From Chloroflexota bacterium (GTDB lineage: Bacteria > Chloroflexota > Dormibacteria > Dormibacterales > Dormibacteraceae): 40,844 bases of DNA. How positions within the stretch are numbered: position 1 is the stretch's first letter; each line of letters starts with the position of its first letter. Location: NCBI GenBank assembly GCA_005889135.1, contig VBEK01000136.1, forward strand, positions 1 through 40,844, read 5' to 3'. The translations under genes were made by a program, and so were the position numbers. Below are positions 7,018 through 35,171 of the stretch, piece after piece. The notes beneath the pieces are model-generated. The model searched no databases. It saw nothing but the letters and a program-made list of their open reading frames with translations, and was not told the DNA's origin.

Positions 7018-7080
7018 GATAGTCCGGGCTATCGACGCGCCAGGCCCGGCAAAAGCTCCGTTAGTCCGGACTATCGACGG
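7018..7080. repeat. Paired palindrome locus A (ggt-rpsO gap)
   Basis: Two copies of the TAGTC-NN-GACTA palindrome. Copy 1 (7020-7031) is TAGTCCGGGCTA with one arm mismatch. Copy 2 (7062-7073) is a perfect TAGTCCGGACTA within GTTAGTCCGGACTATCG. The copies are exactly 42 bp apart and in the same orientation. The locus begins a few bases after the ggt stop and forms part of the rpsO leader. The remaining gap, 6961-7017, shows no other gene. Confidence 0.85.
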
Positions 7081-7088
7081 GTCTCGCG

Positions 7089-8567
7089 TCACTCACGGAC
7101 GTGCTCCACGCTGCCGTCCGAACGTGGGTCGGCTCCGGCCCGCCACGCGCCCGGGCCATCGATGACGATCGCGTGCGCGTGGCCGAAGGAGCTGTGCCGC
7201 GCGGGCATGAGCTTCACGCGGCGGTCGCCCCGCGCCATCTCTGCGGCGCCGGGGTAGTCCGCCTCGACCGCCAGCGTCTCCCCGTCGACGAGGATCGCCT
7301 TCCGCGGCCGGGCCACCGCCTCGGCGGGATCGAGCCCTTCGTCCACCAGGTTGCGCAGGACCTGCACCTGCAGCTGCGGTTGGCGCTCGCCGCCCATGGT
7401 CCCGAGCGCGGCCCACGGCCGGCCGTCGCGCGCCGCCATCGCCGGGATGAGGGTGTGCATCGTCCGCTTCTTCGGCTCGAGGCGGTTGACGTGCGAGGGG
7501 TCGAGCTTGAAGTAAGCGCCGCGGTTCTGGAGCAGCATCCCGGTGCCCTCTGCCACCACGCCGGAGCCGAAGTCATAGGCCACGCTCTGGATAAGCGACA
7601 CCACGTTGCCGTGCTCGTCCGCGGCGCAGAGGTAGATGGTGTCTCCCGGGCGCGGCGTCGCGTCGGCGCGCGCGGCGGGCTCAAACCGCGGGTCCAGGAA
7701 CGCTTCCGGTGGCGCGTGGGCAAACTCAGGGTCGGTGATGTAGCGGTCGCGCAGAGCGTAGGCCGCGTCGCGCGCGGCCCGGAACTCCTGGCCGGCCTCG
7801 AGCCGGAGCGCGAACGACGCCGCGACCAGACCCACCGTCGGAGGCGGGAGCTCGTAAACGGTGACGTCGCCGTATTGGAATGCGATCGGCTCGACCCACT
7901 GCGACCTGTGGGTGGCGAGGTCCTGGCGCGTGATGAGCCCGTCGCGCTTCTTGATCGCCTGAGCGATCGCCGCGGCGATGTCGCCGCGGTAGAAACCGTT
8001 GATCCCGTGCCCACCGATGTCGCGCAGCGTGGACGCTAGATCGGGGTTGCGGAGCAGCATGCCCCGCTCCATCGGCGGGTAGAGCGCGTACGCCGCGGGC
8101 TCCTTCAGAAGCAGCTCCGCCGCGCTCGCCAGGTTGTCGCCCAGGTCGCGGGTGATGATGTAGCCGTCCTGGGCCAGGCCGGCCGCCGGATCGAGCACCG
8201 CGCCAAATCCGACGCTGCCGAAGCGCTCGAGCAGCCTCCCCCACGCCTCCACGGTCCCGGGCACGGTGACGCTGAGCACGCCTCGGGCGGGCATGTCCTC
8301 GTGCCCGCGCTCGCGCACCGCCTCGACGGTCGCCAGCTCGCCCGACCGCCCGGCGCCGATCAATCCCACGGGAGACGCACCGCCGGCGGGCCAGACGATC
8401 GCCATCAGGTCGCCTGCGACCGAGGTCATGTGCGGGTAGACGACGCACAGCACCGCGTCGGCGGCGATCGCCGCGTCGATCGCGTTGCCCCCATCGCGCA
8501 AGACCTGCGCCCCCACCTCGGTGGCAGTGTGATGAGGGGTGGCAATCACCCCCCGCGTCTTGCCCAT
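7089..8567 (-). CDS. Gamma-glutamyltransferase-family protein (YwrD-like)
   Basis: N-terminal nucleophile hydrolase of the gamma-glutamyltranspeptidase family, which self-cleaves before a conserved threonine and acts on gamma-glutamyl amides such as glutathione. The N-terminal half has [20 protein letters not shown] and an AGDLMAIVW block. The processing/catalytic site aligns with [21 protein letters not shown], with T310 as nucleophile. [11 protein letters not shown] matches the late glycine-rich motif. The 492 residues include no signal peptide or membrane anchor, unlike secreted GGTs and like Bacillus YwrD. The ATG at 8567 has AGGA eight bases upstream. The real substrate is unknown. It lies alone between hairpin-rich gaps. 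Confidence 0.88.
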
Positions 8568-8625
8568 GTTTCAGATCCTAGGCACTGGGTGGGCCGCGAC
8601 CCGCCCGTTGCGTCGCATCGCCGTG

Positions 8626-8648
8626 GCGGCCGGACTTGCTCCGGCCGC
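8626..8648. repeat. GGCCGGA-N5-TCCGGCC hairpin, copy 1
   Basis: A perfect 9-bp inverted repeat, GCGGCCGGA / TCCGGCCGC, with loop CTTGC, in the 262-bp dgk-ggt gap. The core stem GGCCGGA-N5-TCCGGCC recurs at 24475-24493 in the yebC-ruvC gap with a different loop. This suggests a REP-like dispersed hairpin. The rest of the gap (8568-8829) holds no open frame that looks coding. Confidence 0.6.
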
Positions 8649-8771
8649 GACACGCGTCTGGTTCAGCAGCCCAGACCACGTGTGTGGAAGGCAAATCAGC
8701 AAAGCCCCTCCGCTCCGGAAGGAGTTCGGGCCGCGAAACCGGCGCGAGGGACCGCTGCGGCGGTACTTGCT

Positions 8772-8826
8772 CTGGGCGCCGTTGAGCGGCCCAGCGTAGA
8801 GGAAACCGGGCACGGTTTCCTCTACG
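8772..8826 (-). terminator. Tandem hairpins downstream of the lipid-kinase gene
   Basis: CGTAGAGGAAACCG and its exact complement form a 14-bp stem with a 4-base loop (8795-8826), starting four bases past the dgk stop. A second, bulged stem (CTGGGC...GCCCAG, 8772-8794) follows directly. There is no T-run, so this may be a rho-independent terminator without U-tract, an RNA 3' stabiliser, or both. Its position at the end of the long rimP-dgk transcript supports a 3'-end role. Confidence 0.6.
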
Positions 8827-8829
8827 AAA

Positions 8830-9774
8830 TCATCGGGGGGTTATGAACTCGATCGCGCCGGGTTGGATCTCGAAGAGAGCGGGCAGAAATCCGACCGCCT
8901 CGCCGTCGAGGTCGATACGCACCTTCTCCGGCGACGTCACCGACACCCGCTTGCCGTACATGAGCTCCATCTTCGGGTTGTTCTGGTCGAGGTGCTTGCC
9001 GCTCATGATGTCGTTCATCCCGCGCAGCGTCTCGAGCTTGCCCGCGTCCTTGATCAGGATCACGTCGAACACCCCGTCGGTGGGCGACGCGGCCGGAGCC
9101 ATCTGCATGCCCCCGCCGAAGAACTGGCAGTTCGCGACCACCACCTGCTGCACCTTCTTCAGGTCGTAGACGGAGCCGTCGACGTCGACCGTCATCGGCT
9201 TGTTGTTGAAGCGCATCAGCGCGCGCAGGCCGCCGATCCTGTAGGCGGCGCTGCCGAACCGTTTGGTCCCGTTCCCAACTGTGTACACGACCTCACCGCC
9301 GAGGCCGGCGTCGGCGATGTTGATGAAATGACGCACGCCGGTGGCGCCGTCGTCGGTCGTGTACGTGACGCAGCCCGCGTCCAGGCGCCTGACCATGCCG
9401 CTGCGCAAGATCTCCACGGCCTGCTTCGTGTCGAGCGGGATGCGAAGCGTGCGCCGGAAATCGCCGCCCGTGCCCACGGGCACCATGGCCAGCTTCGTCG
9501 ACGTCGGGATGGGTGCGCTGTTGCGGAAGAAGCCGTTGACGACCTCGTTCAGCGTCCCATCGCCGCCGACGGCGACGACGACCGGGCGTGAGGCAAGCAC
9601 GTTGCGCTGGGCGATCTCGGTCGCCTCCAGCGGGCGCGTGGTCTTCACGACCTCGTAAGGCAGGCCAGACGACGGCAGCCACGCCTCCACGGCGGCCCAC
9701 TCCCTCCCTGCCTTGCCCGCCCCGGAGGCGGGGTTGACGATGAACAGGATCGGCGCGCCGGCGCGGGCGGCTAT
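8830..9774 (-). CDS. Diacylglycerol kinase-family lipid kinase (YegS/DgkB type)
   Basis: ATP-dependent lipid kinase phosphorylating diacylglycerol or a related lipid. The ATP-site motif VAVGGDGTLNEVVNGF and the later MVPVGTGGDF are clear. The conserved N-terminal strand ILFIVNPASGAGKAG is encoded upstream of the only canonical start (GTG 9690). No ATG/GTG/TTG separates it from the in-frame TGA further upstream. An ATA codon at 9774-9772 is preceded by GGGAGG at 6-base spacing and overlaps the TAG of the FAD-oxidase gene as ATAG. I use it as the start, giving 314 residues. A CTG nine codons later lacks a Shine-Dalgarno. Last gene of the operon. Confidence 0.9.
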   Translation of the reverse strand: MAARAGAPILFIVNPASGAGKAGREWAAVEAWLPSSGLPYEVVKTTRPLEATEIAQRNVLASRPVVVAVGGDGTLNEVVNGFFRNSAPIPTSTKLAMVPVGTGGDFRRTLRIPLDTKQAVEILRSGMVRRLDAGCVTYTTDDGATGVRHFINIADAGLGGEVVYTVGNGTKRFGSAAYRIGGLRALMRFNNKPMTVDVDGSVYDLKKVQQVVVANCQFFGGGMQMAPAASPTDGVFDVILIKDAGKLETLRGMNDIMSGKHLDQNNPKMELMYGKRVSVTSPEKVRIDLDGEAVGFLPALFEIQPGAIEFITPR

Positions 9775-11132
9775 CTCGAGCCTCCCACCGCGCGAGGATT
9801 CATGATCCCCTCAGGGTCGATTCCTTCCTTTACCGCTCTCCAGACCCGCATCCATCCTCCCATCTCGTCCGCGATCCACCGCGATCTGGCCTGGCCGACC
9901 CCGTGGTGATGCGTGATCGCGGCTCCCAGCTCGAGCGCCGCCGTCATCGCTCCCTCCCAGGCGCGCCCATATGTAGCACGCGCCTCGGCTTCGGTGCCGC
10001 CCGATCCCGCGAACGAGAAATAGGCGCAGCACCCCTGCTCGTAGGCATGACTGAAATGGCATAACGCGAGCCCGCCAACCCCTATTGCGCTCTTGACCCT
10101 GGTGTGGAGCTCGGGCAGAACTGTCCAGGGCGCCGCCAGCTCGATCGTGTCCAGGTACGCGCCGGCCGGGGCGAGGAACGCCTGCAGGCGCTCCGCGGAG
10201 AGGTCGAACCGGTGGGCGAGCCAGCGCTCCCACGGCTCCCCGCCCAGCGCGCGGGCCTCGCCGGCCAGCCTCTTGACCTCCGCCGCCTCCGCCTCGGCGA
10301 CCTTCCGCACGCCCGCGGTGGCCACGACCATTGCGACCTCTCCGTCCTGCACCTCGTAGCCGCTGAAGGCGGCGTCTTCGTGGTCGTAGAGGCGCATGAC
10401 CAGCGGCCGGATGCCCGCCTGCATGACCGCCCGCATGCACTCCAGGCCCGCGCGCAGGTCGGCGAAGGCGTACCCCCGACCGACGGTCGCCTCGGGCAGG
10501 CGATGCACGCGCAGGGTCGCGGCGAGGATGACGCCGAGGCCGCCTTCGGCGCCCATGAAAAGCTCGTGCAGCGCCGGTCCGGCCGCCGAGCGCGGTCCCG
10601 GACGTGGCGCGGCAAACGTCCCGTCGGGCAGGACCACCGCCAGTCCGATGACCATGTCCTCGATGCTTCCGTAGCGGCTCGACTCCTGGCCCGAGGAGCG
10701 TGTCGAGATCAGCCCGCCGACGGTGGTGCCGGGCAGGGAGCTCGGATAGTGGCCGAGGGTGAGGCCGCGGGCGTTGAGCTGCTGCTCGAGGGCATAGCCG
10801 TTCACCCCGGCTTCGCACTTACAGACGAGGTTTGTCTCGTCGATCTCGAAGACGCGGTCCAGCGCCGACATGTCGAGAGCTATCTCGCCGGCCTCCGGCG
10901 AGACCGCTCCGCAGACGCCGCTGCCACCTCCGACCGGCGTCACGGCGACGTTGTTGGCGCTGGCCCAGCGCAGGATCTCCGCCACCTGGTCGCGGCCCGC
11001 CGGACGAGCGACGAGGATCCTCGGCGGTGCCTTGCCCGCCCGCTCGTCCATGATCCCGAGCGGCCAGAGGTCCTTCAGCGGGCGCTCGTCGACCGCGGGA
11101 GCGCCGACGATCTTCTCCAGGTCGGTTCTCAT
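9771..11132 (-). CDS. FAD-linked oxidase, alkylglycerone-phosphate synthase-like
   Basis: A VAO/PCMH-type flavoprotein of 453 residues. The FAD-binding half has PVGGGSGVCGAV, then PGTTVGGLISTRSSGQESSRYG, then EDMVIGLAVVLPDG. The C-terminal half ends with ITHHHGVGQARSRW and DPEGIMNPRAV. The HHHG motif matches alkyl-dihydroxyacetone-phosphate synthase better than glycolate or lactate oxidases, which usually have EHGIG. Such an enzyme would make an ether-lipid precursor from acyl-DHAP. That function is inferred from the motif and from the glycerol-phosphate-type neighbour. ATG at 11132 overlaps the stop of the GlpB-like gene (ATGA). Confidence 0.78.
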   Translation of the reverse strand: MRTDLEKIVGAPAVDERPLKDLWPLGIMDERAGKAPPRILVARPAGRDQVAEILRWASANNVAVTPVGGGSGVCGAVSPEAGEIALDMSALDRVFEIDETNLVCKCEAGVNGYALEQQLNARGLTLGHYPSSLPGTTVGGLISTRSSGQESSRYGSIEDMVIGLAVVLPDGTFAAPRPGPRSAAGPALHELFMGAEGGLGVILAATLRVHRLPEATVGRGYAFADLRAGLECMRAVMQAGIRPLVMRLYDHEDAAFSGYEVQDGEVAMVVATAGVRKVAEAEAAEVKRLAGEARALGGEPWERWLAHRFDLSAERLQAFLAPAGAYLDTIELAAPWTVLPELHTRVKSAIGVGGLALCHFSHAYEQGCCAYFSFAGSGGTEAEARATYGRAWEGAMTAALELGAAITHHHGVGQARSRWIADEMGGWMRVWRAVKEGIDPEGIMNPRAVGGSR

Positions 11133-12256
11133 GCGCCTTGTTTCGCCGCGTAGCGACCGGCCAGCCAGCCGGTGAGGATGGGAACGCCGAAGCCGCTCGG
11201 CCCGGCGTAGTCATAGCCTCCGAGCACCGCCCCGGCGGCATAGAGGTTGCCGAACGCGGCCGCGCCGTCCTCCCGCAGCGGATGCAGGCGCTTGTCGGTC
11301 ATCAGGCCGATCCGCATCTCCTCGCTCGGGTCGAGGTATTCGAGGAGATGCAGCCTGACGCCCAAGCTGGACGCCGGGCTTCCCTCGCGGAACACGCCGA
11401 GGCCCAGCAGCGGCTCGGTCGTGGCCCGTCCACCCTTGAGTCCGCCCCCGATGTGCCGGCCGGTAGCAAGGACGAAAGCGTCGGCGCGGAAGGAACGCGC
11501 CGAAGAGCGTGCGGCGACGACGCTGGCTTGACTTGTCTCAAAAGCGGTGACCTCAGCCTGCACGGCGCCCAGTGCAAGCGCCTGCTGCAGCCGCCAGCCG
11601 TGCGGCGAGGGCGGTGACGAGAGCAGCTCGAACCCGTCGTCGGGCAAGGCGACAAAGCCGGGTGGGTACGCGATCGCGGCGCCTCGCGCGCGGGGGGCGG
11701 GGGCACGCCGGCCGTACAGGTCTGTCAGCGACGCCGCCACCGGCAGGTCGTCGATCGTCACGTCTTCGGCGAAGGCCTCGATGCCGTGCAGCTCCTTGAG
11801 CGCCTGCGCCGTCGAGGCGGCGTCGTAGTCGCCCACCTGGGGCACGCCGATGACGGCCACCCGCTTGCCAGAGAGTGCCCCTAGCTCGCCTGGCGCGACC
11901 GTGGCCGGGACGATATTGGCCGGCCGGGCGACGCCATGGATATCCGCGTACAGGCCGCGCCTGCGCCACGTGCCCTCGAACTTCAAGCCCTCCTTACCCA
12001 GCGCGAGCTGCAGGGTGGAGATCGCCGTGTCGAGCTCCGTGGCGATGCCGACCGGATCGATGCCGAGCCGCGTCAGGGGATGGTGCGGAGAGCGGAGCAC
12101 GGTATCGAGGTCGTCGATGATCGCCATTCCCCCGGCGTACAGCGCGGTGGCGCCGGGCGCGCGCGCGACGACCGTCACGTCCGCCCCATCGCGGCGCGCG
12201 GCAAGGGCGGCGCAGTAACCCGCGATGCCGCCGCCGATGACGAGCACGCGCGTCAA
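11129..12256 (-). CDS. GlpB-like flavoprotein (anaerobic glycerol-3-phosphate dehydrogenase subunit B family)
   Basis: A 375-residue FAD protein starting LTRVLVIGGGIAGYCAALAARRDG (GxGxxG dinucleotide fold). The C-terminal segment NLYAAGAVLGGYDYAGPSGFGVPI resembles the C-terminus of GlpB. In GlpABC, GlpB pairs with GlpA (catalytic) and GlpC (membrane/FeS); neither is present here, so the partner and reaction are unknown. The start is TTG at 12256, which overlaps the ribF TGA as TTGA. A much longer open frame extends upstream into ribF, but it is low-complexity shadow sequence. It lies between ribF and the AGPS-like oxidase with 4-bp overlaps on both sides. Confidence 0.75.
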   Translation of the reverse strand: MTRVLVIGGGIAGYCAALAARRDGADVTVVARAPGATALYAGGMAIIDDLDTVLRSPHHPLTRLGIDPVGIATELDTAISTLQLALGKEGLKFEGTWRRRGLYADIHGVARPANIVPATVAPGELGALSGKRVAVIGVPQVGDYDAASTAQALKELHGIEAFAEDVTIDDLPVAASLTDLYGRRAPAPRARGAAIAYPPGFVALPDDGFELLSSPPSPHGWRLQQALALGAVQAEVTAFETSQASVVAARSSARSFRADAFVLATGRHIGGGLKGGRATTEPLLGLGVFREGSPASSLGVRLHLLEYLDPSEEMRIGLMTDKRLHPLREDGAAAFGNLYAAGAVLGGYDYAGPSGFGVPILTGWLAGRYAAKQGA

Positions 12257-15045: not shown

Positions 15046-15413
15046 GGCTTCGCCTCCTCGCCGTTCGCGGGGGGCAGCACCTCTTTCAAGAGCTCCGAGA
15101 TGTGCACCGCGTACTCGATCGACGGGTCGAGCTCGAACCGCAGCTCGGGCGAGAACTTGAGGTTCTGCAGCCGGCGCCCGAGCTCGTGCCTGATCAGGCC
15201 CTTGGCCGAGACCAGGCCCTTCATCGACGCCTTCTTCTCCTCGGGGTTGCCGAGCACGCTGACCCGCACGCGAGCCTGGCGCAGGTCGGGAGACATGCGC
15301 ACGGCCGTGATGCTGACGAAGCCGATGCGGGGGTCTTTGAGGTCACGCCGGATGATCGACATGATCTCCTCCCGCACCTGCTCCCCCACCTGGTCCGCGC
15401 GGTAGCTGGTCAT
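15042..15413 (-). CDS. rbfA: 30S ribosome-binding factor A
   Basis: Small KH-like protein needed for late 30S maturation and 16S 5'-end processing. It reads MTSYRADQVGEQVREEIMSIIRRDLKDPRIGFVSIT, then VRVSVLGNPEEKKASMKGL and ELRFELDPSIEYAVHISELL, the standard family layout at 123 residues. The ATG at 15413 has AGGAAG about eight bases upstream. An in-frame TTG 21 bases earlier is less likely. Downstream of infB, as usual. Its stop TAG overlaps the proposed ATA start of nrnA. Confidence 0.95.
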   Translation of the reverse strand: MTSYRADQVGEQVREEIMSIIRRDLKDPRIGFVSITAVRMSPDLRQARVRVSVLGNPEEKKASMKGLVSAKGLIRHELGRRLQNLKFSPELRFELDPSIEYAVHISELLKEVLPPANGEEAKP

Positions 15414-15449
15414 CGCGACCACTTCCTTTAGCAAGACGGCACGCCTTGC

Positions 15450-17432: not shown

Positions 17433-17474
17433 GCCGGAACTACTGATTATGCCGCCCGAGCGGAATTCGAAACT

Positions 17475-25276: not shown

Positions 25277-25312
25277 GTTAGGACGAGCCTCCGAACATGC
25301 TTTCGATCAAGT

Positions 25313-26473: not shown

Positions 26474-26487
26474 GCGAATCTCCTATG

Positions 26488-27531
26488 TCAAGCGGCAACC
26501 GCCATTAGTGCGGTTGACCGCCGTGAGTGGTCCTGTCGAAGGCGCCGATAGACCTCGTCGGAGATTTGGCGGCGCAAGGCTCGAATCGCCTCGGTCTTGC
26601 TGTTGCCCATGCTCAAGCGCCGAGCAATGTAGTCCGATGCCTGTCCTCCGACGCGCATCTGCGTGATCGCGATTCGGTGTAGAACGACGTTGAGCTGGCG
26701 GTTGCCACCGCGGTTGAGACGGTGACGTTCATGATTCCCAGACCAGACCGGAATCGGCGCCGTGCCGTTGTGCATGGCGAAGGCTGCGCTCGAGCGGAAG
26801 CGACTGACGTCGGCGGTTTCCGCCACCAGCTTGGCAGCGCTCAAGCCAGCGCAGCCGGCCAGGCTTAGCAAGCTCGGCGCCAGTTCATGCATGAGCACCT
26901 CGATGCGTCGCTGCAACCGTTTTATCGACCGCGTCAGCTCGGCCAGCCGGTCCACTAGCTCGAGCGCGATTTCAGCCACCACCCCGCTGTGGTTTTCAAG
27001 GCGAGTGCGGACCTCGGCCAAGACCACGGCTCGGAGTAGCCCGCTGGCCACGACCTGGTAGCCCGGCTCCACCTCGTGTAGGTGCCAGAGCAGCCGATTC
27101 TGTATTCGAGTTCGCTCCCCGACCAGGTCTTCACGGTGGTCGACCAACAGCTTGACCTCGCGCTCCTTACCCTCCAGCTGCGCCACTGGGAGGCGAGGTT
27201 CACGCAAAGCCGCTCGGGCCACCGCCAAAGCGTCGATAGGGTCTGACTTGCCGAGCTCGCGACCGCTTCTGCGGGCGCCGCCCATCAGCTTCGGCGACAC
27301 CTGCACCACCGCCTCACCGGCATTCAACAGGTTCCGCTCTAACACCCGCGACAGGTGCCGGCAATTCTCCAGCGCCCATTGCCGCTGCGACCATTGCCGG
27401 GCCCAGCTCAAGGCTTCCATGTGACCGCTTGGCGTCGCCGCCACAGTGCGCTCTCCCAACTGACGCCCGTTCTCGTCCACCGCCACCACCGTGTGGGTCT
27501 TCTTGTGGCAGTCGCCGCCAAATGTCACCAT
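26488..27531 (-). CDS. IS110-family transposase (DEDD/serine recombinase)
   Basis: 347 residues. The RuvC-like N-terminal domain has the acidic set D7 (GGDCHKKTH), E55 (WALENCRH), D97 and D100 (GKSDPIDALAVARAAL). After a helical segment, the Tnp20 domain shows LAGCAGLSAAKLVAETADVSRF, then SSAAFAMHNGTAPIPVWSG with candidate catalytic serines, then HRLNRGGNRQLNVVLHRIA. All motifs look intact and no frameshift is seen, so the element may be active. In the family, the enzyme uses a bridge RNA from the element's non-coding end to pair target and donor. Confidence 0.95.
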   Translation of the reverse strand: MVTFGGDCHKKTHTVVAVDENGRQLGERTVAATPSGHMEALSWARQWSQRQWALENCRHLSRVLERNLLNAGEAVVQVSPKLMGGARRSGRELGKSDPIDALAVARAALREPRLPVAQLEGKEREVKLLVDHREDLVGERTRIQNRLLWHLHEVEPGYQVVASGLLRAVVLAEVRTRLENHSGVVAEIALELVDRLAELTRSIKRLQRRIEVLMHELAPSLLSLAGCAGLSAAKLVAETADVSRFRSSAAFAMHNGTAPIPVWSGNHERHRLNRGGNRQLNVVLHRIAITQMRVGGQASDYIARRLSMGNSKTEAIRALRRQISDEVYRRLRQDHSRRSTALMAVAA

Positions 27532-27628
27532 GTTCCTGTCTCCTTGTCTTGGGGATACAGGACCGGTCGGCGGACACGCCTGAGTTGGGGCGGATCCACG
27601 CTCCTATGAAGTCACGCCGGCCGGCCCA

Positions 27629-27711
27629 TTGCGTCCGGCGGGCGGCAATTCGCATGAAAGCTACGCCGCGTCGACGAGCACCGAGTCTATGAGCCAACCC
27701 GCCGGACGCAA
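27629..27711 (-). ncRNA. Candidate bridge-RNA region of the IS110 element
   Basis: TTGCGTCCGGCGGG (27629-27642) and its exact complement (27698-27711) form a 14-bp stem enclosing 55 bases. Inside is a smaller stem, GCGGC / GCCGC (27642-27646 / 27665-27669; its first base overlaps the outer arm). It lies upstream of the transposase, where IS110-group elements encode the bridge RNA. The guide loops cannot be assigned without the element's ends and an empty site. The rest of 27532-27757 shows no gene. Confidence 0.4.
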
Positions 27712-27757
27712 CGAAGCGTGACACTCAGACGAGTCTAGTTAGGCGCGCGGAACCCTC

Positions 27758-27828
27758 GTTAGTCGCGACTATCGCGGTTCTTCGCGAGCCAAAGCCATTG
27801 TTAGTCGCGACTATCGCGGTTCTTCGCG
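27758..27828. repeat. Paired palindrome locus B (cvpA-IS110 gap)
   Basis: Two perfect TAGTCGCGACTA palindromes (27760-27771 and 27802-27813), 42 bp apart in the same orientation. The identity extends past the palindrome: GTTAGTCGCGACTATCG continues into CGGTTCTTCGCG in both copies, making a 29-bp direct repeat. The locus ends 12 bases before the cvpA stop codon begins on the other strand. Confidence 0.88.
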
Positions 27829-27840
27829 GACGGCGTGGTT

Positions 27841-28395
27841 CTAGGGGTTGACCGGTCCCGGGCCGAAGTAGATCTGCGGGTCGGGCGGAAGCAACGGTGA
27901 GAAGAGGGCGATGATCGGCCGGCCGATCGCGTTCACCAGGTTGACCATGAACAGCGAGTGACGGACCGAGTCGCGCAGGTTCTGCTGCACTGCGTCGAGC
28001 ACGGCGCCGCCGATGGGGTTGGCCGCCTGGCCGAGCTCATAGACGACGACGACGGAGAGCAGGACCGCGGTCGTCACGCCGAGGGCGACGCCAAAAGTGC
28101 GGTTGAGCACCACGGCCTGGATCTGGATCTGCGAGTGCGCGAGCTGGGTCGCCCCCTCGACGATCACGAGCACCGCGACGATGATCCCGAAGAAGCCGTA
28201 GATGCGCCCGTCGGCGACCTCGAAGCTCGACGTCTGCTGCAGTATCGCGCCGGCCTGAAGGCCCATGTTCGTAGCGGCCCACACGGCGATGAAGACCGCG
28301 ACCAGGCCGATGAACCGGCGGATGAGTCCGCTGTAGAAGCCGCCCACCCCGTAGGCGATGAGCAGCACGATGGGAAAGATGTCGATCCAGCTCAA
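27841..28395 (-). CDS. CvpA-family membrane protein
   Basis: 184 residues with about four hydrophobic helices (IFPIVLLIAYGVGGFYSGLI, FIGLVAVFIAVWAATNMGL, FGIIVAVLVIVEGATQLA, FGVALGVTTAVLLSVVVVYEL) and a proline-rich C-terminus. This is the arrangement of CvpA/colicin-V-production family proteins, whose role outside E. coli is unclear. TTG at 28395 has GGAAG seven bases upstream. Co-directional with pheT, 52 bases downstream of it. Confidence 0.75.
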   Translation of the reverse strand: MSWIDIFPIVLLIAYGVGGFYSGLIRRFIGLVAVFIAVWAATNMGLQAGAILQQTSSFEVADGRIYGFFGIIVAVLVIVEGATQLAHSQIQIQAVVLNRTFGVALGVTTAVLLSVVVVYELGQAANPIGGAVLDAVQQNLRDSVRHSLFMVNLVNAIGRPIIALFSPLLPPDPQIYFGPGPVNP

Positions 28396-28414
28396 TTGGC
28401 GCTTCCCTCGAAAG

Positions 28415-28430
28415 GCACGCGGACGCGTGC
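28415..28430 (-). terminator. GCACGC-N4-GCGTGC hairpin after pheT
   Basis: A perfect 6-bp stem with a 4-base loop, 18 bases past the pheT stop, in the 52-base gap before cvpA. On the minus strand it is followed by CTTTC, not a proper T-run. It may be a weak terminator or a 3' processing barrier. Confidence 0.4.
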
Positions 28431-28447
28431 AGAATGCGCGTCAGGAC

Positions 28448-30823
28448 TCACTCGCGGAACCTGGCGCGGTGTCTTTTCTCCAGCCCCAGCTTGATCTCCG
28501 ACATCACCTCGTCCACTTTGGCGTCCGTCAGGGTGCGCTCCGGGCTTCGGAAAGTCAAGGTGAAGGCGATGCTCTTGTGACCCTCCGGAACCTGGGCGCC
28601 GTGATACTCGTCAAACGCTCGGGCCTGCTCCAAAAGTTCGCCGCCTGATTCCTTGATCGCCTGCAGCACCGCGCCTGCCGCGACCGTCTCCTCGACGACT
28701 ACCGCCAGGTCGCGCGCCACCGCCGGGTAGCGCGCCAGCGGCTGGGCCCGAGGCGTCCGCGACGCGGCGAGCACCGGCTCGACGTCGATCTCGAACGCGA
28801 CCACGCGCCCTGTGCCCCCAACCACGGTCGGATGCAGCTCGCCCAGGTAGCCGAGCTGCCGTCCGTCCAGGACCACCGCGGCGCACCTGCCCGGGTGAAA
28901 CAGCTGCGCCGCCGCGCGCTGGTAGGTGCAAGCGGGCGCGTGCAGCGACGCTACGCATCCATCCAGCACCGACTTCATCTCGCGGAATGCCTTCTCTCCG
29001 GCCGCGCCTGATGGGCCCGCGGTCGCCACCGCGGCCAGGCGCAGCGGTTCCTCGGGCTGCGCGTTCTTCTCGCCGACACGAGCGAGGAACGCGGCCGCGA
29101 TCTCGTAGATGCGAACGTCGTCGCGCGCGCGGTCGCGGTTGAGGGCGACTCCGTCGACCAGCGAAGGCAAGAGCGACGTCCGCAGCGTGTCCATGTCGTC
29201 GCTCAACGCGTTGGCGACGCGCATGGCGTGCGCGGCGATGCGCAGCTCTTCCAGCTTCTTGCTCGAGACCAGGGCGGGGGTCCAGGTCTCGGTGAAGCCC
29301 GCGCCGGCCAGGACTTCCCTCGCCTCATCAAGGCGGCGATCGAGGCTGGGAGCGAGCGGCGTCCACCGGTCGTGCCTGCGGCCGGGCAGCGTCGGCGGCA
29401 CGCGGTCGTAGCCGTACACCCGGCCGACCTCCTCGACCAGGTCCTCGGGAATGGAGACGTCGAGCCTGAACACGGGCGGCAGCACGTCCCACTCACCGTC
29501 GCCGCGCACCTTGACGTGGAAGCTGAGGCGTTTGAGGATCGCCTCGGCCTCCTCGAGCGGCACATGCGTGCCGAGGACGTCGTCGATCAGCGCGGGCCGG
29601 ATGTTGACTCGCACCGGCTCCTGCGGTCGAGGGTAGACGTCGGCCCAGTCCCTGTGCACCTGTCCGCCCGCGATCTCGGCGATCAGGGACGCGGCGCGCC
29701 GGGCGCCCGCGAGCGCGAGCTCGGGCGGTAATGCCCGCTCGAATCGCGCCGACGCCTCGGTGCGGAGGCCGAGGGCGCGCGATGTCTGGCGGACGCTGGG
29801 CCCGCTGAAGGTGGCCGACTCGAGCAAGATGTCGGCCGTCGCCTCGGTGACGGCCGTCTCTTCGCCGCCGATCACCCCCGCCAGCGCGACAGGCTTCCGC
29901 GCGTCGGCGATGACGAGCATCTCCGCGGTCAGCTCGCGCTCCACGCCGTCGAGCCCGAGCAGCTTCTCCTTCCCTCTCGCCCGCCGGACCTCGATCGCCG
30001 GCCCCTCGAGCTTGGCGAGGTCGAACGCGTGCAGCGGCTGCGCGTACTCGAGCAGGACGTAGTTGGTGATGTCGACGATGTTGTTGATCGGGCGCACGCC
30101 GGCGGCACGCAGGCGGCGCTGCATCCAGTCGGGGCTTGGTCCCACTGTCACGCCGGTGATCACGCCGCCGATGTAGCGGCCGCAAAGGTCCGGGTCCTCG
30201 ATCCCGACGTTGACCATCTCCCTGCCGGCCGGGTCGGCGGTGCCGGTGAAAGCGGGCATGAAGTCGCGCTTCATGGGCCGGTCGAGGCCGGCCGCCAGCT
30301 CACGCGCGATCCCGAGGTGGCCCATGCAGTCGGGGCGGTTGGACGTGACCTCCGCCTCCATGACTGCCTGGCTCGGGATCACCGTCGTCAGAGGTTGCCC
30401 CGGCGTGCCGCGGTCGAGGACCAGGATCCCGGCGTGGTCGTCGCCGAGCAGCAGCTCGGCCGCCGAGCAGAGCATTCCACTCGCCTTGTAGCCGGCGATA
30501 TTCATGTCCTTCACGACCTTGCCGTTGGGCACGGTCGTGCCAGGCAGGGCCACCGGGACGAGGCTGCCCACGACCGCGTTGGGCGCGCCGGCGATGATCT
30601 GCTGGACGCGGCCGCCGAGGTCTACCTGGTGGATCCAGAGGTCGTTGCGCGACTTCGGATGCTTCTGCTGGTCCAGCACCTTGCCGATCACGATCGCCGA
30701 CAGGTCGACCATCGTCAGCGACTCGACCTCGACCCCTTGACGCGTGAGCACGTCGGCCGCGTCCTTGGGCGTGACGCCATCCAGGTCTACGAAGTCGCCG
30801 AGCCACTCATACGAAATGCGCAT
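28448..30823 (-). CDS. pheT: Phenylalanyl-tRNA synthetase beta subunit
   Basis: Partner of PheS in the heterotetramer that charges tRNA-Phe and edits misactivated tyrosine. At 791 residues it has bacterial length. The N-terminal tRNA-binding (EMAP-like) domain includes VVGSLVPVALPGTTVPNGKVVKDMNIAGYKASGMLCS. The B3/B4 editing domain has NYVLLEYAQPLHAFDLAKL. B5 follows, and the C-terminal anticodon-binding domain has ARYPAVARDLAVVVEE and FTLTFRSPERTLTD. ATG at 30823. It is separated from pheS by 113 bp containing paired palindromes. Confidence 0.97.
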   Translation of the reverse strand: MRISYEWLGDFVDLDGVTPKDAADVLTRQGVEVESLTMVDLSAIVIGKVLDQQKHPKSRNDLWIHQVDLGGRVQQIIAGAPNAVVGSLVPVALPGTTVPNGKVVKDMNIAGYKASGMLCSAAELLLGDDHAGILVLDRGTPGQPLTTVIPSQAVMEAEVTSNRPDCMGHLGIARELAAGLDRPMKRDFMPAFTGTADPAGREMVNVGIEDPDLCGRYIGGVITGVTVGPSPDWMQRRLRAAGVRPINNIVDITNYVLLEYAQPLHAFDLAKLEGPAIEVRRARGKEKLLGLDGVERELTAEMLVIADARKPVALAGVIGGEETAVTEATADILLESATFSGPSVRQTSRALGLRTEASARFERALPPELALAGARRAASLIAEIAGGQVHRDWADVYPRPQEPVRVNIRPALIDDVLGTHVPLEEAEAILKRLSFHVKVRGDGEWDVLPPVFRLDVSIPEDLVEEVGRVYGYDRVPPTLPGRRHDRWTPLAPSLDRRLDEAREVLAGAGFTETWTPALVSSKKLEELRIAAHAMRVANALSDDMDTLRTSLLPSLVDGVALNRDRARDDVRIYEIAAAFLARVGEKNAQPEEPLRLAAVATAGPSGAAGEKAFREMKSVLDGCVASLHAPACTYQRAAAQLFHPGRCAAVVLDGRQLGYLGELHPTVVGGTGRVVAFEIDVEPVLAASRTPRAQPLARYPAVARDLAVVVEETVAAGAVLQAIKESGGELLEQARAFDEYHGAQVPEGHKSIAFTLTFRSPERTLTDAKVDEVMSEIKLGLEKRHRARFRE

Positions 30824-30850
30824 CTCTAGCTCATCACCCGCGTCATTGAC

Positions 30851-30911
30851 GGATAGTCGCGACTATCCAGTGCTTCGCGGCTCGAGGAGCCGCGATAGTC
30901 TCGACTAACCG
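30851..30911. repeat. Paired palindrome locus C (pheS-pheT gap)
   Basis: Copy 1 is a perfect TAGTCGCGACTA (30854-30865) inside the 18-bp palindrome GGATAGTCGCGACTATCC. Copy 2 is TAGTCTCGACTA (30896-30907), with intact arms but an asymmetric centre. The distance is 42 bp. The spacer itself contains a strong hairpin, TCGCGGCTC-GAG-GAGCCGCGA (30875-30895). On the minus strand copy 2 reads GTTAGTCGAGACTATCGCGG, like locus B but inverted. Confidence 0.87.
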
Positions 30912-30936
30912 AGGGTTTCGCTTTCGCTCGCATCGC

Positions 30937-31959
30937 CTAGAACTGCTCCAAGAAGCGCAGGTCGGGCTCGTAGAACATGCGGATGTCGTCGACGTCGTGC
31001 TTCAGCATCGCCATCCGCTCGATGCCGAAGCCCCAGGCGTACCCGTTCCACAGCGAGGGGTCGATGCCACCGTTGCGCAGCACCTGCGGGTGGACCATGC
31101 CGCATCCGCCGACCTCGAGCCAGCCCTTGTGCCGGCAGCTCTTGCAGCCCATCCCCCCGCAGATGCCGCACGACACGTCGAACTCGAAGCTCGGTTCGGT
31201 GAACGGGAAGTAGCTCGGTCGCACGCGAACTTTCCGGTCCGGTCCGTACAGCGACTGGATCATGTAGAGCAGCGTGCCCTTCATGTCCCCAACGGTGAGG
31301 CCCTTGTCGACCGCGAGCCCCTCGACCTGGCTGAAGTAGGGAAGGCGCGTCGCCTCCGGGGCGTCCCGGCGGTACACGCGTCCCGGCGTGATGATGTAGA
31401 TGGGCGGCTCCTTGATGCGCTGCATGGCGCGGATCTGCACCGGGGACGTGTGCGCCCGCAGCAGCAGCTCGGGGCTGAAGTAGAACGAGTCCCAGTCCTC
31501 GCGCGCGGGGTGGCCGGCGGGGATGTTGAGGGCCTCGAAGTTGTACCACTCGGTCTCGACCTCGGGCCCCAGCTCGACCTGGTACCCGAGGGACTCGAGC
31601 ACGGTCTCGATCTGGCGCCGGGTCTGAGTGAGGACGTGGATGCGACCGCGCCCCAGCGGCGGGCCCGGGAAGGTGACGTCGATGGCCTCGGTCTCGGCCA
31701 GGTCGGCGAGCCGCGCCTGCTCGAGCTCCGCCCGCCGCGCGGCGAGGGCAGACTCGATCGCGCGCTTGGCCTCGTTGGCGGCCTTCCCCAGCGCGGCCTT
31801 CTCCTCCGCGCGAAGGCTGCCGATGTTGGACAGCAGGGTGCTGACAAGCCCGCTTCTGCGGCCGAGGTACTCGAGCTCGATCTTCGCCAGCGCATCCTCG
31901 GTCTGAGCCTGGCCGATCGCCTCCAGGGCGTGGCCGGTAAGCGAGGCGGCGTCGCTCAT
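30937..31959 (-). CDS. pheS: Phenylalanyl-tRNA synthetase alpha subunit
   Basis: Catalytic class II subunit. 340 residues with an N-terminal coiled coil (about 15-90), motif 1 around IHVLTQTRRQIE, motif 2 PGRVYRRDAPEATRLPYFSQVEGLAVD, and motif 3 GYAWGFGIERMAMLKH. A cysteine-rich insert CGICGGMGCKSCRHKGW, followed by GGCGMVHP, looks like a zinc site; it occurs in a subset of bacterial PheS. ATG overlaps the methyltransferase stop (ATGA) and has a strong GGAGGAGG upstream. Confidence 0.97.
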   Translation of the reverse strand: MSDAASLTGHALEAIGQAQTEDALAKIELEYLGRRSGLVSTLLSNIGSLRAEEKAALGKAANEAKRAIESALAARRAELEQARLADLAETEAIDVTFPGPPLGRGRIHVLTQTRRQIETVLESLGYQVELGPEVETEWYNFEALNIPAGHPAREDWDSFYFSPELLLRAHTSPVQIRAMQRIKEPPIYIITPGRVYRRDAPEATRLPYFSQVEGLAVDKGLTVGDMKGTLLYMIQSLYGPDRKVRVRPSYFPFTEPSFEFDVSCGICGGMGCKSCRHKGWLEVGGCGMVHPQVLRNGGIDPSLWNGYAWGFGIERMAMLKHDVDDIRMFYEPDLRFLEQF

Positions 31960-32708
31960 GCGCCCCTCCTCCGCCGGACCTCGAAGAGGATCAGCGCCGC
32001 CGCCGCTGCGACGTTCAGCGACTCGACGCCCTCCGTGAGCGGCACGGTGACCAGCCTCAGGTCCTTGCGCGAGAGCCCGCGCGCCTCGCTGCCGAGCACG
32101 ATCATGCCCGCAGACTCTATCGGCGTCTCGGCCAGCGGCGCACCGCCGGTCGGGGCGGCGCCGTAGCCCTCGAGCTCGTCGAGGTCCTTCCAGCGCGCCT
32201 TCGCGACCTTCAGCCGGAAGACGTTGCCGGCCGACGCGCGCACCGCCTTCGGCCCGAACGGGTCGGCGCTGCCGGGCAGGACCACGAGCGAGGGCGCGCC
32301 GGCGGCGGCCGCGGTGCGGCAGATGGCGCCGACGTTGCCGGGATCCTGGACGCCGTCCAGCACCACCAGAGGCCAGCCCGCCGCGCGGGCGGCGTCGATC
32401 GCCTCTCCCGGCGAGGCCTCGTGCACACGTGCGATGGCGATCGCGCCCTGGGGCGTCACGGTCTGGGTGGCGGCGCGGAACGCGGCGGGTGTAAGCGTCA
32501 CGCGGGCGTCGGTGTGGAACGGAAGCTTGTCCCCCTCGCGCACGGCGATCAGGTCGAACGCGAGACCTGCAGCCTTCGCCTCGGCGAGCACGCGCGGACC
32601 TTCCAGGAGGACGAGGCCTGGCTCGCGCCGGACGGCGAGACGTCGAAGGCGACGGACGACCTCGTTGTCCGGGCTGGAGATCAGCTGGTCAGAGGTTGTT
32701 CTTCGCAA
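31956..32708 (-). CDS. SpoU/TrmH-family RNA 2'-O-methyltransferase
   Basis: SPOUT-class methyltransferase that likely modifies a ribose in rRNA or tRNA. The N-terminal substrate-binding domain has [17 protein letters not shown]. The knotted domain has [27 protein letters not shown], then [13 protein letters not shown], and [25 protein letters not shown], the three SpoU motifs. The family normally begins at about [16 protein letters not shown]. The TTG at 32708 (with GGAGG directly adjacent, overlapping rplT) and a CTG at 32684 are both possible starts. Positioned between rplT and pheS, as in many bacteria. Confidence 0.93.
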
Positions 32709-33042
32709 CCTCCACCAGCCGGGCAAAGGAACCGCTGTCGCGCACGGCCAGGTCAGCCAGCATCTTGCGGTCGATCTCCACTCCGGCCTGGCGAAGGCCG
32801 TGCATCAACTTGTTGTAGGGCAGCCCCGACTGCCTGGAAGCGGCATTGATGCGCGCGATCCAGAGCTGCCGCATCTCACGCTTGCGCCGCCGGCGGTCGC
32901 GAAACGCGTACGCAAGCGCGTGCAGCACCGCCTCGTTGGCGGGCCGGAAGAGCAGCTTCTTGGAGAGGCGGAACCCCTTCGCGCGATCGAGGATCGCCTT
33001 GTGCCGGCGGTGCGCGGGGACGCCGCGCTTGACTCGTGCCAT
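32689..33042 (-). CDS. rplT: 50S ribosomal protein L20
   Basis: Early 50S assembly protein. 117 residues opening with [18 protein letters not shown], then [48 protein letters not shown], unmistakably L20. Seven bases downstream of rpmI. L20 represses the infC-rpmI-rplT operon in other bacteria by binding mRNA; the leader structures upstream of infC here could serve this. Confidence 0.98.
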
Positions 33043-33049
33043 CTCTCTA

Positions 33050-33244
33050 CTACTTCACCAGGGCCCGGCGCACCGTCTTGCGGTCGGCCTTCGAGACCGG
33101 CTGCTCCGTGTGGTCCTTCCGCTTGTGCTTCTTCGACTTCTGGTGCAGGCGGTGGCTGGTCCACGAGTTTCGCCTCACCAGCTTTCCGTTGCGCGTCATG
33201 CGGACACGCTTGGCGAGTCCCTTCATCGTCTTCTGCTTAGGCAC
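33050..33244 (-). CDS. rpmI: 50S ribosomal protein L35
   Basis: 64 residues, very basic: [25 protein letters not shown], then [16 protein letters not shown], the L35 pattern. The GTG at 33244 overlaps the infC stop by eight bases, indicating translational coupling. Middle gene of infC-rpmI-rplT. Confidence 0.97.
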
Positions 33245-33785
33245 TGGTCGCAGCCTGCTCCTTCGCCGCTCCCTGGCGGCTGGGGGCGAGGATCATGAAA
33301 AGGTTCCTACCCTCCAGCAGGGGCTGGCGTTCGATGACCGCGAACTGCTTGGCGTCGTCCGCCACGCGCTCGAGTATCTTCCGCCCGATCTCCTGGTGGA
33401 CCATCTCGCGGCCCCTGAACATGATCGTCACCTTCACCTTCTCTCCAGCTTCGAGGAACTGTTTCAACCCCTTGAACTTCGTCTGGAAATCGTGCTCCGC
33501 GACCTTCGGGCGAAGCTTCATCTCCTTCAGCTTGATGACGTTCTGCTTGCGACGCTGGTCCTTCTCGCGCTTGATGGTCTCGAACTTGTAGCGTCCGTAG
33601 TCCATCAGGCGGCAGACCGGCGGGTTCGCTTGCGGCGCCACCTCGACGAGGTCGAGCCCCTTCTCGTTTGCGATGCGAAGCGCGGCGTCCAGGGAAAGCA
33701 CGCCTAGCTGGTTGTTCTGGTCGTCGATCAGTCGCACTTCCGAGCTGCGGAGCTGGTCGTTGATCCTGAGCTCTTTAAACGGTAT
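33237..33785 (-). CDS. infC: Translation initiation factor IF-3
   Basis: Binds the 30S subunit and rejects non-canonical start codons and wrong initiator tRNAs. The conserved N-terminal RINDQLRSSEVRLIDDQNNQLGVLSL runs continuously. The C-terminal domain follows with KLRPKVAEHDFQTK and KVTIMFRGREMVH. GTG 33737 is the only ATG/GTG/TTG after an upstream in-frame TGA, and it would delete the RINDQLR motif. An ATA at 33785-33783 (IPFKELRINDQ) has GAGG nine bases upstream; I use it as the start (182 residues). infC using a rare codon for autoregulation is established in other bacteria (AUU in E. coli), which makes ATA credible. Confidence 0.95.
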   Translation of the reverse strand: MPFKELRINDQLRSSEVRLIDDQNNQLGVLSLDAALRIANEKGLDLVEVAPQANPPVCRLMDYGRYKFETIKREKDQRRKQNVIKLKEMKLRPKVAEHDFQTKFKGLKQFLEAGEKVKVTIMFRGREMVHQEIGRKILERVADDAKQFAVIERQPLLEGRNLFMILAPSRQGAAKEQAATSA

Positions 33786-33835
33786 GGGACGAAACCTCGG
33801 TCAAATTCAGGGTTGCTCTATTCCTCCATCCAGAT

Positions 33836-33864
33836 AAAACAAAACGGACAGCACGCGCCGTCCG
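33836..33864 (-). terminator. Rho-independent terminator (attenuator) in the infC leader
   Basis: On the minus strand CGGACGGC-GCGT-GCTGTCCG forms an 8-bp stem (one G-U pair) and is followed by TTTTGTTTT. This is the only hairpin with a clear T-run in the window. It lies about 50 bases before the infC start, so it would end transcripts before the operon. The upstream segment 33900-33908 can pair with its 5' arm (8 of 9 bases) as an antiterminator. Confidence 0.75.
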
Positions 33865-33886
33865 CTGCGGAACCCTTTTGAGCCGG

Positions 33887-33921
33887 GCTCTGAGGGTGAG
33901 GGCGGCGCCCTGCTTCAGAGC
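33887..33921 (-). promoter_or_regulatory. Upstream stem in the infC leader
   Basis: GCTCTGA / TCAGAGC arms (7 bp) enclose a second stem, GGGC-GCC-GCCC (33900-33910). The inner stem uses the same bases that could pair with the terminator arm, so the two folds are mutually exclusive. This is the layout expected of an L20- or IF3-responsive leader; the ligand is unknown. The remaining leader (33786-33835) shows a GGAGGA without a plausible open frame. Confidence 0.45.
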
Positions 33922-33977
33922 GTGGATGGTACCGGAAACGTAACCGGGTGCGCAAAATGTCGTTTGCCTTTCGCGAT

Positions 33978-35105
33978 ATGGAAACGCAGCCCCGCGGCGC
34001 AGCACTCACGGCCACGGCCCTGGCGGTCCTTGTCATCGGCGCCTGCGGCGGGCAGGGCGGCAACGTCGCCTCGCGCACCCCGTCGCCATCGAGCTCGCCG
34101 GCGCCGCAGGCTTCGGCGACCGGCTCCCCCACCCCGGTCCCCTCCCCCGTGCGGGTTACCGGCGCCTACGGCGTGCTGTACGGCAGCCAGAGCGCGAGCA
34201 CCTACACGATCACCATCATCGGCGTCGACGGCAAGATCGTCGCCGCGGCGGAGGCCTCGACCCCGCCCCTGGTCACGTGCGGGGGCCAGCTCGGCGCCCC
34301 CGTCGCCCCACCAATCAGCACAAGCGACTCCCGCGTCTATTTCATGGACGCCCAGGGTGTCGTCCGCTTCCTCGCCCCCGACGGGACGACCGGACGGGCG
34401 ACCTCGGTTCCAGCGCCGACTGCGTCGCGGCGGGCGATGTTCACCGTCAGCCCCGACGACCGGCGGATCGCGGTCGTCGTCAACGACTACACCGCTTCGG
34501 GCGCCTCGACGAAGCTCTACGTCGAGGACCTTAGCGGCGCCGGCAACCACATTGACACCTTCAGCCAGTCCGGCTCGCGCACCCTGTGGCCGGTCGGATG
34601 GCACGGCACCAACAACCTCGTCGTCGCGGTCGTAGCGTCCTGCACCTCTGGCGGTGGGCCGTTCTGCTGCGGCCCGCTGGAGCTTCACGTCGTCGACCCC
34701 GCCACCGCGACCCGGCGTTTCACGCTGGGGAATGTCACCTCGTGTCTGATCGCCGGGTCCCCCTCGCCCGCCGGCGTGGCCTGTGAGAGCCAGTCGCAAA
34801 GCCAGGCGACGGTCCTGAACTGGACGGCGGGGACGGTACGCACCCTGGCCCTCAACAGACCGTCCTTCGTTTACGTGTCGCCGTCCGGGAGCCTGATCGC
34901 CATGGTCGACGACTCTGGAACGTCCTTCACGCTCGGCGCCGCGACCATCCCCGGAATGTTCGCCTGCACCTGGCTCGATGACACCCACGTCCTGTCCGGC
35001 GGCGATGCGCAGCACCAGCCGCGAGTCGCGGATGTCGTCAACGGCCGCATCGCTCCCGTGGCCGCCCAGGGCGACTGCGCAGGCCGTCTGCCGGGAGGTC
35101 TCTAA
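33978..35105 (+). CDS. Putative secreted lipoprotein, beta-propeller-like
   Basis: Not recognised as a named family. From ATG 33978 the 375-residue product has a short basic N-terminus, a hydrophobic stretch, and the lipobox VIGAC with the lipidated cysteine at position 23. A Ser/Pro/Thr/Ala-rich linker (about 30-55) follows, then repeated beta-strand units such as VSPDDRRIAVVVNDY, SRTLWPVGWHGTNNLVVAVV and VSPSGSLIAMVDD, suggesting a propeller fold. Several cysteine pairs (CGPLELH region, CLIAG, CESQ) may form disulfides. In-frame GTG and ATG codons lie up to 30 bases upstream. It is one of only two plus-strand genes. No Shine-Dalgarno is evident. Confidence 0.8.
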   Translation: METQPRGAALTATALAVLVIGACGGQGGNVASRTPSPSSSPAPQASATGSPTPVPSPVRVTGAYGVLYGSQSASTYTITIIGVDGKIVAAAEASTPPLVTCGGQLGAPVAPPISTSDSRVYFMDAQGVVRFLAPDGTTGRATSVPAPTASRRAMFTVSPDDRRIAVVVNDYTASGASTKLYVEDLSGAGNHIDTFSQSGSRTLWPVGWHGTNNLVVAVVASCTSGGGPFCCGPLELHVVDPATATRRFTLGNVTSCLIAGSPSPAGVACESQSQSQATVLNWTAGTVRTLALNRPSFVYVSPSGSLIAMVDDSGTSFTLGAATIPGMFACTWLDDTHVLSGGDAQHQPRVADVVNGRIAPVAAQGDCAGRLPGGL

Positions 35106-35110
35106 CCCCC

Positions 35111-35171
35111 GCGATAGTCCGGACTAACGACCATGTCGGGAGTCCGGAGCGCGCGATAGTCCGGACTAACG
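35111..35171. repeat. Paired palindrome locus D (between convergent lipoprotein gene and thrS)
   Basis: Two perfect TAGTCCGGACTA palindromes (35115-35126 and 35157-35168), 42 bp apart, each inside the identical 19-mer GCGATAGTCCGGACTAACG. The locus fills most of the 80-bp gap between the two stop codons. Orientation is inverted relative to loci A and B. Confidence 0.88.

Follow-up and report, generated by a model that had tools for sequence, protein, structure and literature searches.

Paired palindromes at a 42-bp step: a dispersed module at gene 3′ ends in one genus of Chloroflexi

Palindromic arrays in the window and in the host genome

The stretch of DNA analysed here, which we call the window, is contig VBEK01000136.1 (40,844 nucleotides) of assembly GCA_005889135.1, from a Chloroflexota bacterium of soil. 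It corresponds to C173 among the 221 contigs of the host genome (G000), which comprises 2,952,697 bases (2.95 Mb) and is 94.7% complete; handles beginning with G, C and L are ours and denote genomes, contigs and loci. At four places close to gene ends, the window carries an array of two 12-bp palindromes of the type TAGTCNNGACTA separated by a 30-bp spacer. The arrays, their spacers and the neighbouring genes are given in Table 1.

Table 1. Coordinates of the palindromic arrays, their spacers and neighbouring genes in the window
Feature	Position	Strand	Details
Two-palindrome array	7020-7073	.	7020-7031 TAGTCCGGGCTA, 7062-7073 TAGTCCGGACTA; 30-bp spacer
30-bp spacer of 7020 array	7032-7061	.	
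Gamma-glutamyltranspeptidase gene	7089-8567	-	stop 15 bp from the 7020 array
Two-palindrome array	27760-27813	.	both copies TAGTCGCGACTA
30-bp spacer of 27760 array	27772-27801	.	polarity T..T
Colicin V production-like gene	27841-28395	-	read from 28395 to 27841; stop 27 bp from the 27760 array
Two-palindrome array	30854-30907	.	TAGTCGCGACTA then TAGTCTCGACTA; pheS stop 29 bp off, pheT start 30 bp off
30-bp spacer of 30854 array	30866-30895	.	mixed polarity T..A
Two-palindrome array	35115-35168	.	both copies TAGTCCGGACTA; convergent neighbours
30-bp spacer of 35115 array	35127-35156	.	polarity A..A
Predicted gene beside 35115 array	ending 35105	+	no Pfam match
Threonyl-tRNA synthetase-like gene beside 35115 array	ending 35186	-	

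An earlier note on this DNA had described eight copies of the palindrome, and all were found where it had placed them, with the two starts of each pair exactly 42 bp apart. As it had also claimed, six of the eight are perfect palindromes; the exceptions are the copy at 7020, which has a mismatch in one arm, and the copy at 30896, which has a TC core (seven of the eight match TAGTCNNGACTA exactly). With up to two mismatches allowed, the window holds 11 matches, a number that none of 100 dinucleotide shuffles reached (mean 4.95, maximum 10). The distances from the arrays to stop codons (15, 27, 29 and 9/17 bp) agree with the 9-30 bp reported in the same note. Two copies per locus, however, proved to hold for the four loci of the window and not for the host at large, where arrays have up to six copies. 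Nor are the spacers simply "mostly unrelated", as had been thought, since they have a weak common pattern and a polarity, which are described below.

The host genome contains 259 exact TAGTCNNGACTA sites, compared to one for the reversed-pattern control, and 158 exact pairs at 42 bp, compared to none. A genome-wide search that covered spacings of 42-72 bp added eight pairs, every one of them at 43 bp, and none at 44-72 bp; spacings shorter than 42 bp were absent from the sampled arrays. The earlier note would have been refuted by palindromes occurring genome-wide as often singly or at random spacing as at 42 bp, and the host counts do not refute it. With 166 steps (158 at 42 bp and 8 at 43 bp) joining the 259 sites, the host has at most 93 clusters. 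We found 38 of them in 758,048 sampled host bases, 37 with 2-6 copies. The only apparent single (at 12993 in L157) lies 84 bp from a neighbouring array, in register, and was counted apart from the array to which it belongs. Steps in the sampled host arrays measure 42 bp in 75 cases and 43 bp in seven. The first 20 sampled stretches were picked from contigs with known arrays, as were at least six of the next 40 (C90, C100, C132, C182, C188 and C199), the remainder being taken mostly by contig number; no array density is derived from this sample. At two host loci (L010 at the end of C4, and L021 on C14), a contig stops just past the array and the other contig has the same left flank. Because C4 ends after its array and C14 repeats the left flank, arrays seem to break the assembly, and the true array numbers may differ.

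Gene context was taken from a simple hexamer-model gene caller. After exclusion of one cluster inside a predicted gene and another at a contig edge, 36 sampled arrays had a predicted gene on both sides. Convergent genes flank 19 of these, tandem genes 16 and divergent genes one; of all intergenic bases, the three arrangements take up 17, 60 and 23% (p = 9e-7, 0.09 and 0.001, respectively). The two half-samples gave 12, 8 and 0, and 7, 8 and 1. The nearest stop codon is a median of 15 bp away, and no more than 40 bp away in 30/35 cases. In seven arrays (L092, L094, L101 at 1847, L102, L018, L162 at 9246, and L175), the TAG of an end palindrome is itself the stop codon of the predicted gene (distance -3).

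Exact pairs at 42 bp occur in 14/17 genomes of the window's genus and in 0/25 other genomes of the order (14/42 in the order as a whole). They are present in seven of 400 genomes sampled over the phylum, all seven from the same genus. Sister species have 0-19 exact pairs each (none in G009, G013 and G014), compared to 158 in the host. With the looser pattern GTCNNGAC, pairs at 42 bp number 168 in the host, 1-41 in each of the 16 congeneric genomes, and 0-3 in the 25 genomes of other genera (0-2 in the control). A scan of named genomes returned at least 58 stretches with exact pairs, among the matches listed 57 from Chloroflexi metagenome-assembled genomes (MAGs) and one from a Cytophagales MAG. 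A distant-mode search of a plasmid collection with the stretch 27700-27860 gave no match. The string TAGTCGCGACTA was not found in the literature, and among the publications listed for repeats of the palindromic or interspersed type, for convergent genes, for Chloroflexi and for phasing at 42 bp, the titles and abstract openings gave nothing on this family.

Anatomy, symmetry and spread of the module

The repeated unit is a module of ~62 bp, comprising an outer flank (~4 bp), a 12-bp palindrome, a 30-bp spacer, a second 12-bp palindrome, and a second outer flank (~4 bp). In the host sample, all 51 outer flanks have a G followed by A or T ahead of TAG. On each side of the spacer, the base next to the palindrome is A or T and the following one C (100% of 48 host spacers), and T-rich columns lie 8-11 bases from each palindrome; past the array, the flank pattern persists for ~9 bases and then fades. 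The inner flanking bases read T..T (equivalent to A..A on the other strand) in 68/81 host spacers and in 53/66 spacers of relatives. Where an array has at least two such spacers, this polarity is constant in 25/27 cases, so that the module as a whole is directional even if its palindromes are not.

Symmetry extends to the centre of each site. In the arrays examined, the core is self-complementary (CG or GC) at 201/202 sites, a count that enters identical arrays once and leaves aside both L021, a locus with a duplicate flank, and L025 from Cytophagales. Seven pairs mix a CG with a GC core, so that both palindromes are kept and the stem between the two sites is broken, and no pair among these arrays is mutually complementary yet non-palindromic. 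Because the cores are self-complementary, and because the mixed pairs keep their palindromes while breaking the stem, the symmetry appears to fit a two-fold symmetric reader of duplex DNA better than an inter-site stem; it is what such a reader would demand.

The palindromes also differ from the spacers in how fast they change. In 22 comparisons between tandem neighbors (17 in the host and 5 in relatives), spacers differ at 91/660 positions and left palindromes at 5/264 (Fisher p = 3e-9), with right palindromes differing at three positions in the same comparisons. In place, host palindromes change about seven times more slowly than spacers. The sequences show that, in the host, each palindrome is preserved as a double-stranded site with two-fold symmetry up to its centre, the spacer drifting at constant length.

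Copies at different loci reveal how the module has spread. In the CF_47 MAG, three modules (L070 at 1256 and 7313, and L048 at 4022) have the module in common and few bases beyond it; the pairs L078/L052 and L078/L023 in the CF_81 MAG do likewise. These copies have 1-5 spacer differences and occur in either orientation. As some of them share only ~62 bp, we conclude that the module moves as a unit. Flanks are shared on one side between L057 and L041/L033, and between L030 and L039. Sharing on both sides is seen for L041/L033, L069/L049 and L021/L010, as expected of inherited or segmentally copied loci. Spacers from different loci with no more than eight differences form 61 pairs, compared to a mean of 7.9 and a maximum of 13 after column shuffling, the 61 including same-locus pairs from two MAGs or contigs. 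The comparisons within and between genomes show a dispersed, genus-limited module of ~62 bp that has reached many gene 3′ ends by copying and has grown locally in tandem by 42-bp steps.

A proposed duplex-DNA reading and its alternatives

The interpretation that we tentatively favor, with confidence just short of even, is that of a mobile module resembling the doublets of repetitive extragenic palindromic (REP) sequences that form hairpins (REPINs). What is constrained in the module would be two phased dimer sites, read on duplex DNA at the 3′ ends of genes. A dimeric DNA-binding protein, encoded either by the host or by a helper element that has gone unseen, would occupy each palindrome. Two such dimers, 42 bp or about four helical turns apart, would sit on the same face of the DNA and could bind co-operatively, and this would account for the near absence of single sites from the host. 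A bound array between convergent genes, or past a stop codon, may serve as a boundary at which read-through transcription from either side halts or slows down, or may pin local supercoiling; that benefit, or mere tolerance at gene ends, would keep the copies in place.

Both proposals of the earlier note survive in part. A putative two-site protein target on one face of the DNA would be consistent with the exact 42-bp spacing, the symmetry of each site, the slow change of the palindromes and the lack of hairpin covariation described below. A mobile repeat similar to REPs or to bacterial interspersed mosaic elements (BIMEs) is consistent with mobility, location at gene 3′ ends, doublets and tandem clusters, but the transposase that the note had suggested was not found in the survey below. 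The pairing at 42 bp itself stands for the host; in the sister species, many exact palindromes have no exact partner at that distance.

A number of observations weigh against the phased-dimer reading. Neither the binding protein nor the mobilising enzyme was identified. A purely symmetric two-dimer site does not account for the polarity of the inner flanks. The sister species have 0-69 exact single sites, and in several these far outnumber exact pairs (69 sites and 14 pairs in G005, 48 and 17 in G003, and 24 and 3 in G011). G005 has 41 looser pairs compared to its 14 exact ones, the partner often being a degenerate copy, and by eye many looser pairs of the sister species have one degenerate inner arm. 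Since an exact partner is often missing there and one inner arm is degenerate, strict conservation of both palindromes is a feature of the host. The loci of relatives were, moreover, retrieved via exact pairs, so that their arms are biased toward perfection; their cores are not. More generally, arrays were found through their palindromes, and outward extension without that demand added one degenerate unit. Non-symmetric cores do occur outside the 202 sites: CA in host contig C44, and GG or AG at single listed sites of G001, G002 and G003. A transcript of the two palindromes still gives a long predicted stem (a mean of -36 kcal/mol over 102 flanked modules), so an RNA role retains some probability. 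The location at gene ends could merely mark where insertion is harmless. Finally, the junction between pheS and pheT, which was readable in 15 of the 17 genomes of the genus, has an array in only six of those 15 species (G002 among them), the others being bare or having other sequence. At the junctions of G011, G012, G009 and G006 (L111, L112, L113 and L115, upstream of pheT), we observed a repeat-like sequence of another kind, which contains an inverted repeat of the GGGGAGG type.

A farther-reaching version of the phased-dimer reading, which we regard as unlikely, is that one Chloroflexi genus has coupled a host DNA-binding protein to a spreading array of duplex palindromes at 42-bp steps and uses it as a novel form of chromosome punctuation. 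A boundary of two or more dimers at gene 3′ ends, above all convergent ones, would then replace intrinsic terminators or pin supercoils. Cluster numbers across the sister species range from none detected to about ninety, and these species, with 0-158 exact pairs, offer a natural series for testing effects on transcription ends.

The usual interpretation of short, dispersed palindromes is that of elements which fold as single strands and are linked to a Y1 transposase. Applied here, the module would be a true REP, REPIN or BIME, i.e., a non-autonomous single-stranded DNA transposon whose folded doublet is recognised by a Y1 transposase of the REP-associated tyrosine transposase (RAYT) kind. We consider this unlikely, although it is the best placed of the rival explanations. 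It would account for the constant-length doublets, tandem clusters, location at gene 3′ ends, lineage-specific amplification and mobility as a unit, traits that are given for REPINs and REPs in PMC3116915 and PMC3733652. The earlier note had suggested looking for a linked transposase of this type; Y1_Tnp (PF01797) was found in none of the 17 genomes of the genus (MAGs that are 63-96% complete), compared to 5/14 control genomes. The outer flanks described above do not place a GTAG ahead of the palindrome.

Hairpin covariation was likewise lacking, although PMC3116915 calls compensatory changes common in REPINs. Mirrored spacer positions paired in 384/1053 cases in the host, below the 430.7 ± 13.8 of half-swapped controls, and in 353/858 cases in relatives, equal to the 346.9 ± 12.1 of controls; folded modules had lower stability than their half-swapped counterparts in the host and in relatives alike. 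The effect weakened when each array contributed a single spacer (pairing z of -2.3 in the host and 0.3 in relatives; energy z of +1.6 and +2.4). Given no covariation and folding weaker than in the half-swapped controls, we rejected the idea that the spacer is kept as a hairpin. Controls with shuffled spacers leaned the other way, the modules folding slightly better (mean z of -0.42 for 204 strands of 102 modules). Shared symmetric composition is, in our view, the source of this lean, since the half-swap control preserves the column make-up and reverses it.

A separate candidate for mobilising the module was an IS110-type transposase gene in the window (26488-27531, minus strand), the start side of which lies 228 bp from the 27760 array. 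The gene has a low coding score and is perhaps a newcomer. It found no support as a mobiliser, its one match in the genome being itself. According to the title of PMC1525189, insertion sequence (IS) elements target REPs.

The next possibility, that a long stem formed by transcribed doublets terminates transcription or shields the 3′ end of the mRNA, we also think improbable. The location past stop codons suits such an RNA element, as do the long predicted stem and the slight folding advantage over spacer-shuffled controls, and a terminator-like site (30899-30914) overlaps the 30854 array. That site is, however, one of six in the window between 20900 and 40844, where 8.9 are expected on average, i.e., chance level. 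No T-rich columns follow directly after the arrays in the manner of the U-run of an intrinsic terminator, and Rfam gave no match in the window. An inter-site stem does not need self-complementary cores and is broken in the seven mixed pairs, spacer pairing is not favored under the column-keeping control, and by eye the polarity of the arrays has no link with gene direction.

We give rather little credence to the view that the module is a miniature inverted-repeat transposable element (MITE), a passive short derivative of a DDE-type transposon with the palindromes inside its terminal inverted repeats. Judging from the flank columns, outer flank and palindrome would together form an inverted repeat of ~16 bp at both ends; the spread to unrelated places and the degenerate inner arms of sister species point the same way. 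Target-site duplications, on the other hand, were not evident. In 81 arrays, the best offsets for k = 4, 5, 6 and 8 fell within permuted controls, and only k = 3 was slightly over (28 compared to a permuted maximum of 26), at an offset inside the common CGGA/TCCG flank. The roughly seven-fold slower change of the host palindromes in place also speaks against a passive derivative.

If the palindromes were ordinary operators serving a transcription regulator that has a large regulon, perfect dyads at a fixed spacing would be expected, as seen here, yet this reading is very improbable, with one of 36 arrays between divergent genes and the arrays hugging stop codons. Arrays akin to clustered regularly interspaced short palindromic repeats (CRISPR), with 12-bp repeats and 30-bp spacers of constant length, we rejected on anatomy as next to impossible, since the spacers are copied with the module, diverge stepwise between tandem neighbors and have a weak consensus, and the arrays are many, short and scattered; no search aimed at cas genes was made.

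Comparison with known systems

MITEs are short, non-coding and dispersed, and have inverted-repeat ends, all of which is true of the module. It differs from them by the lack of a clear target-site duplication, by the slowly changing host palindromes, and by tandem growth in 42-bp steps.

Helix-phased palindromes also occur in a second phylum. The Cytophagales MAG locus (L025, 1662-1920 of CAMFLX010000063.1) has TAGTCNNGACTA-type sites with a helix-periodic (21 bp) arrangement, in an array of the TAGTCATGACTA type with one 42-bp step and nine 21-bp steps. Unlike the module, these palindromes have AT or AC cores and occupy few loci. In the Cytophagales genome (6.2 Mb), exact AGTCNNGACT pairs at 21 bp number 11, compared to none in the control; pairs on its contig C126 (G042) start at 8671, 8755 and 8860, at distances that are multiples of 21 bp. 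Three IMG/VR viral contigs (L080 at 7216, L081 at 13898 and L082 at 6158), which unlike the module have a GC content of 31-42%, also contain exact TAGTCATGACTA pairs with a 42-bp distance, and L082 has an additional AGTTAGTCGCGACTAACT site at 6358. AGTTAGTCNNGACTAACT is present in 40 stretches of viral contigs.

The closest likeness is to REPINs, REPs and BIMEs. REPINs, as characterised in PMC3116915, resemble the module in having two conserved ends and a length-constrained spacer, in spreading as doublets, in forming tandem clusters and in being extragenic; several paralogous doublets of the module share nothing but the module itself, as a mobile REPIN unit would. Unlike REPINs, the host module ends in perfect duplex palindromes, keeps a 42-bp spacing, has no co-variation in the spacer, and comes without a detected PF01797 gene. 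REPs and BIMEs, according to PMC2817692 and PMC3733652, are high-copy extragenic palindromes in regularly spaced clusters, found downstream of coding sequences and in gaps between genes that converge or run in tandem, and are described there as protein binding sites; GTAG repeats are named in Chloroflexi too (PMC3733652). The module is likewise regularly spaced and has the same location (19 convergent, 16 tandem and 1 divergent of 36 arrays). As to the alternating orientation of repeats in BIMEs, orientation is undefined for a perfect palindrome, and the inner-flank polarity of the module stays constant in 25/27 arrays. More than 100 extragenic palindromes per genome, the number given for REPs in PMC2817692, are found in the host only (259 exact sites, compared to the 0-69 of sister species); of the 38 host clusters sampled, one lies within a predicted gene. 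Differences from REPs and BIMEs are that the module lacks the GTAG tag, has a strict four-turn step, and carries no folded-unit signal in its spacer. The CGTC tag, which marks the stem foot in an alternative superfamily, is not in the host consensus, and part of the degenerate inner arms in the listed pairs of sister species read TCGTC.

The module therefore works like a REPIN or BIME in its spread and location. Because the transposase, the GTAG tag and hairpin covariation all failed, we do not file it as a member of either class and rate it as a variant of dispersed extragenic palindromes, in which the four-turn spacing and the symmetry of each site point to duplex recognition. If this is right, REP-like behavior arose here by another route.

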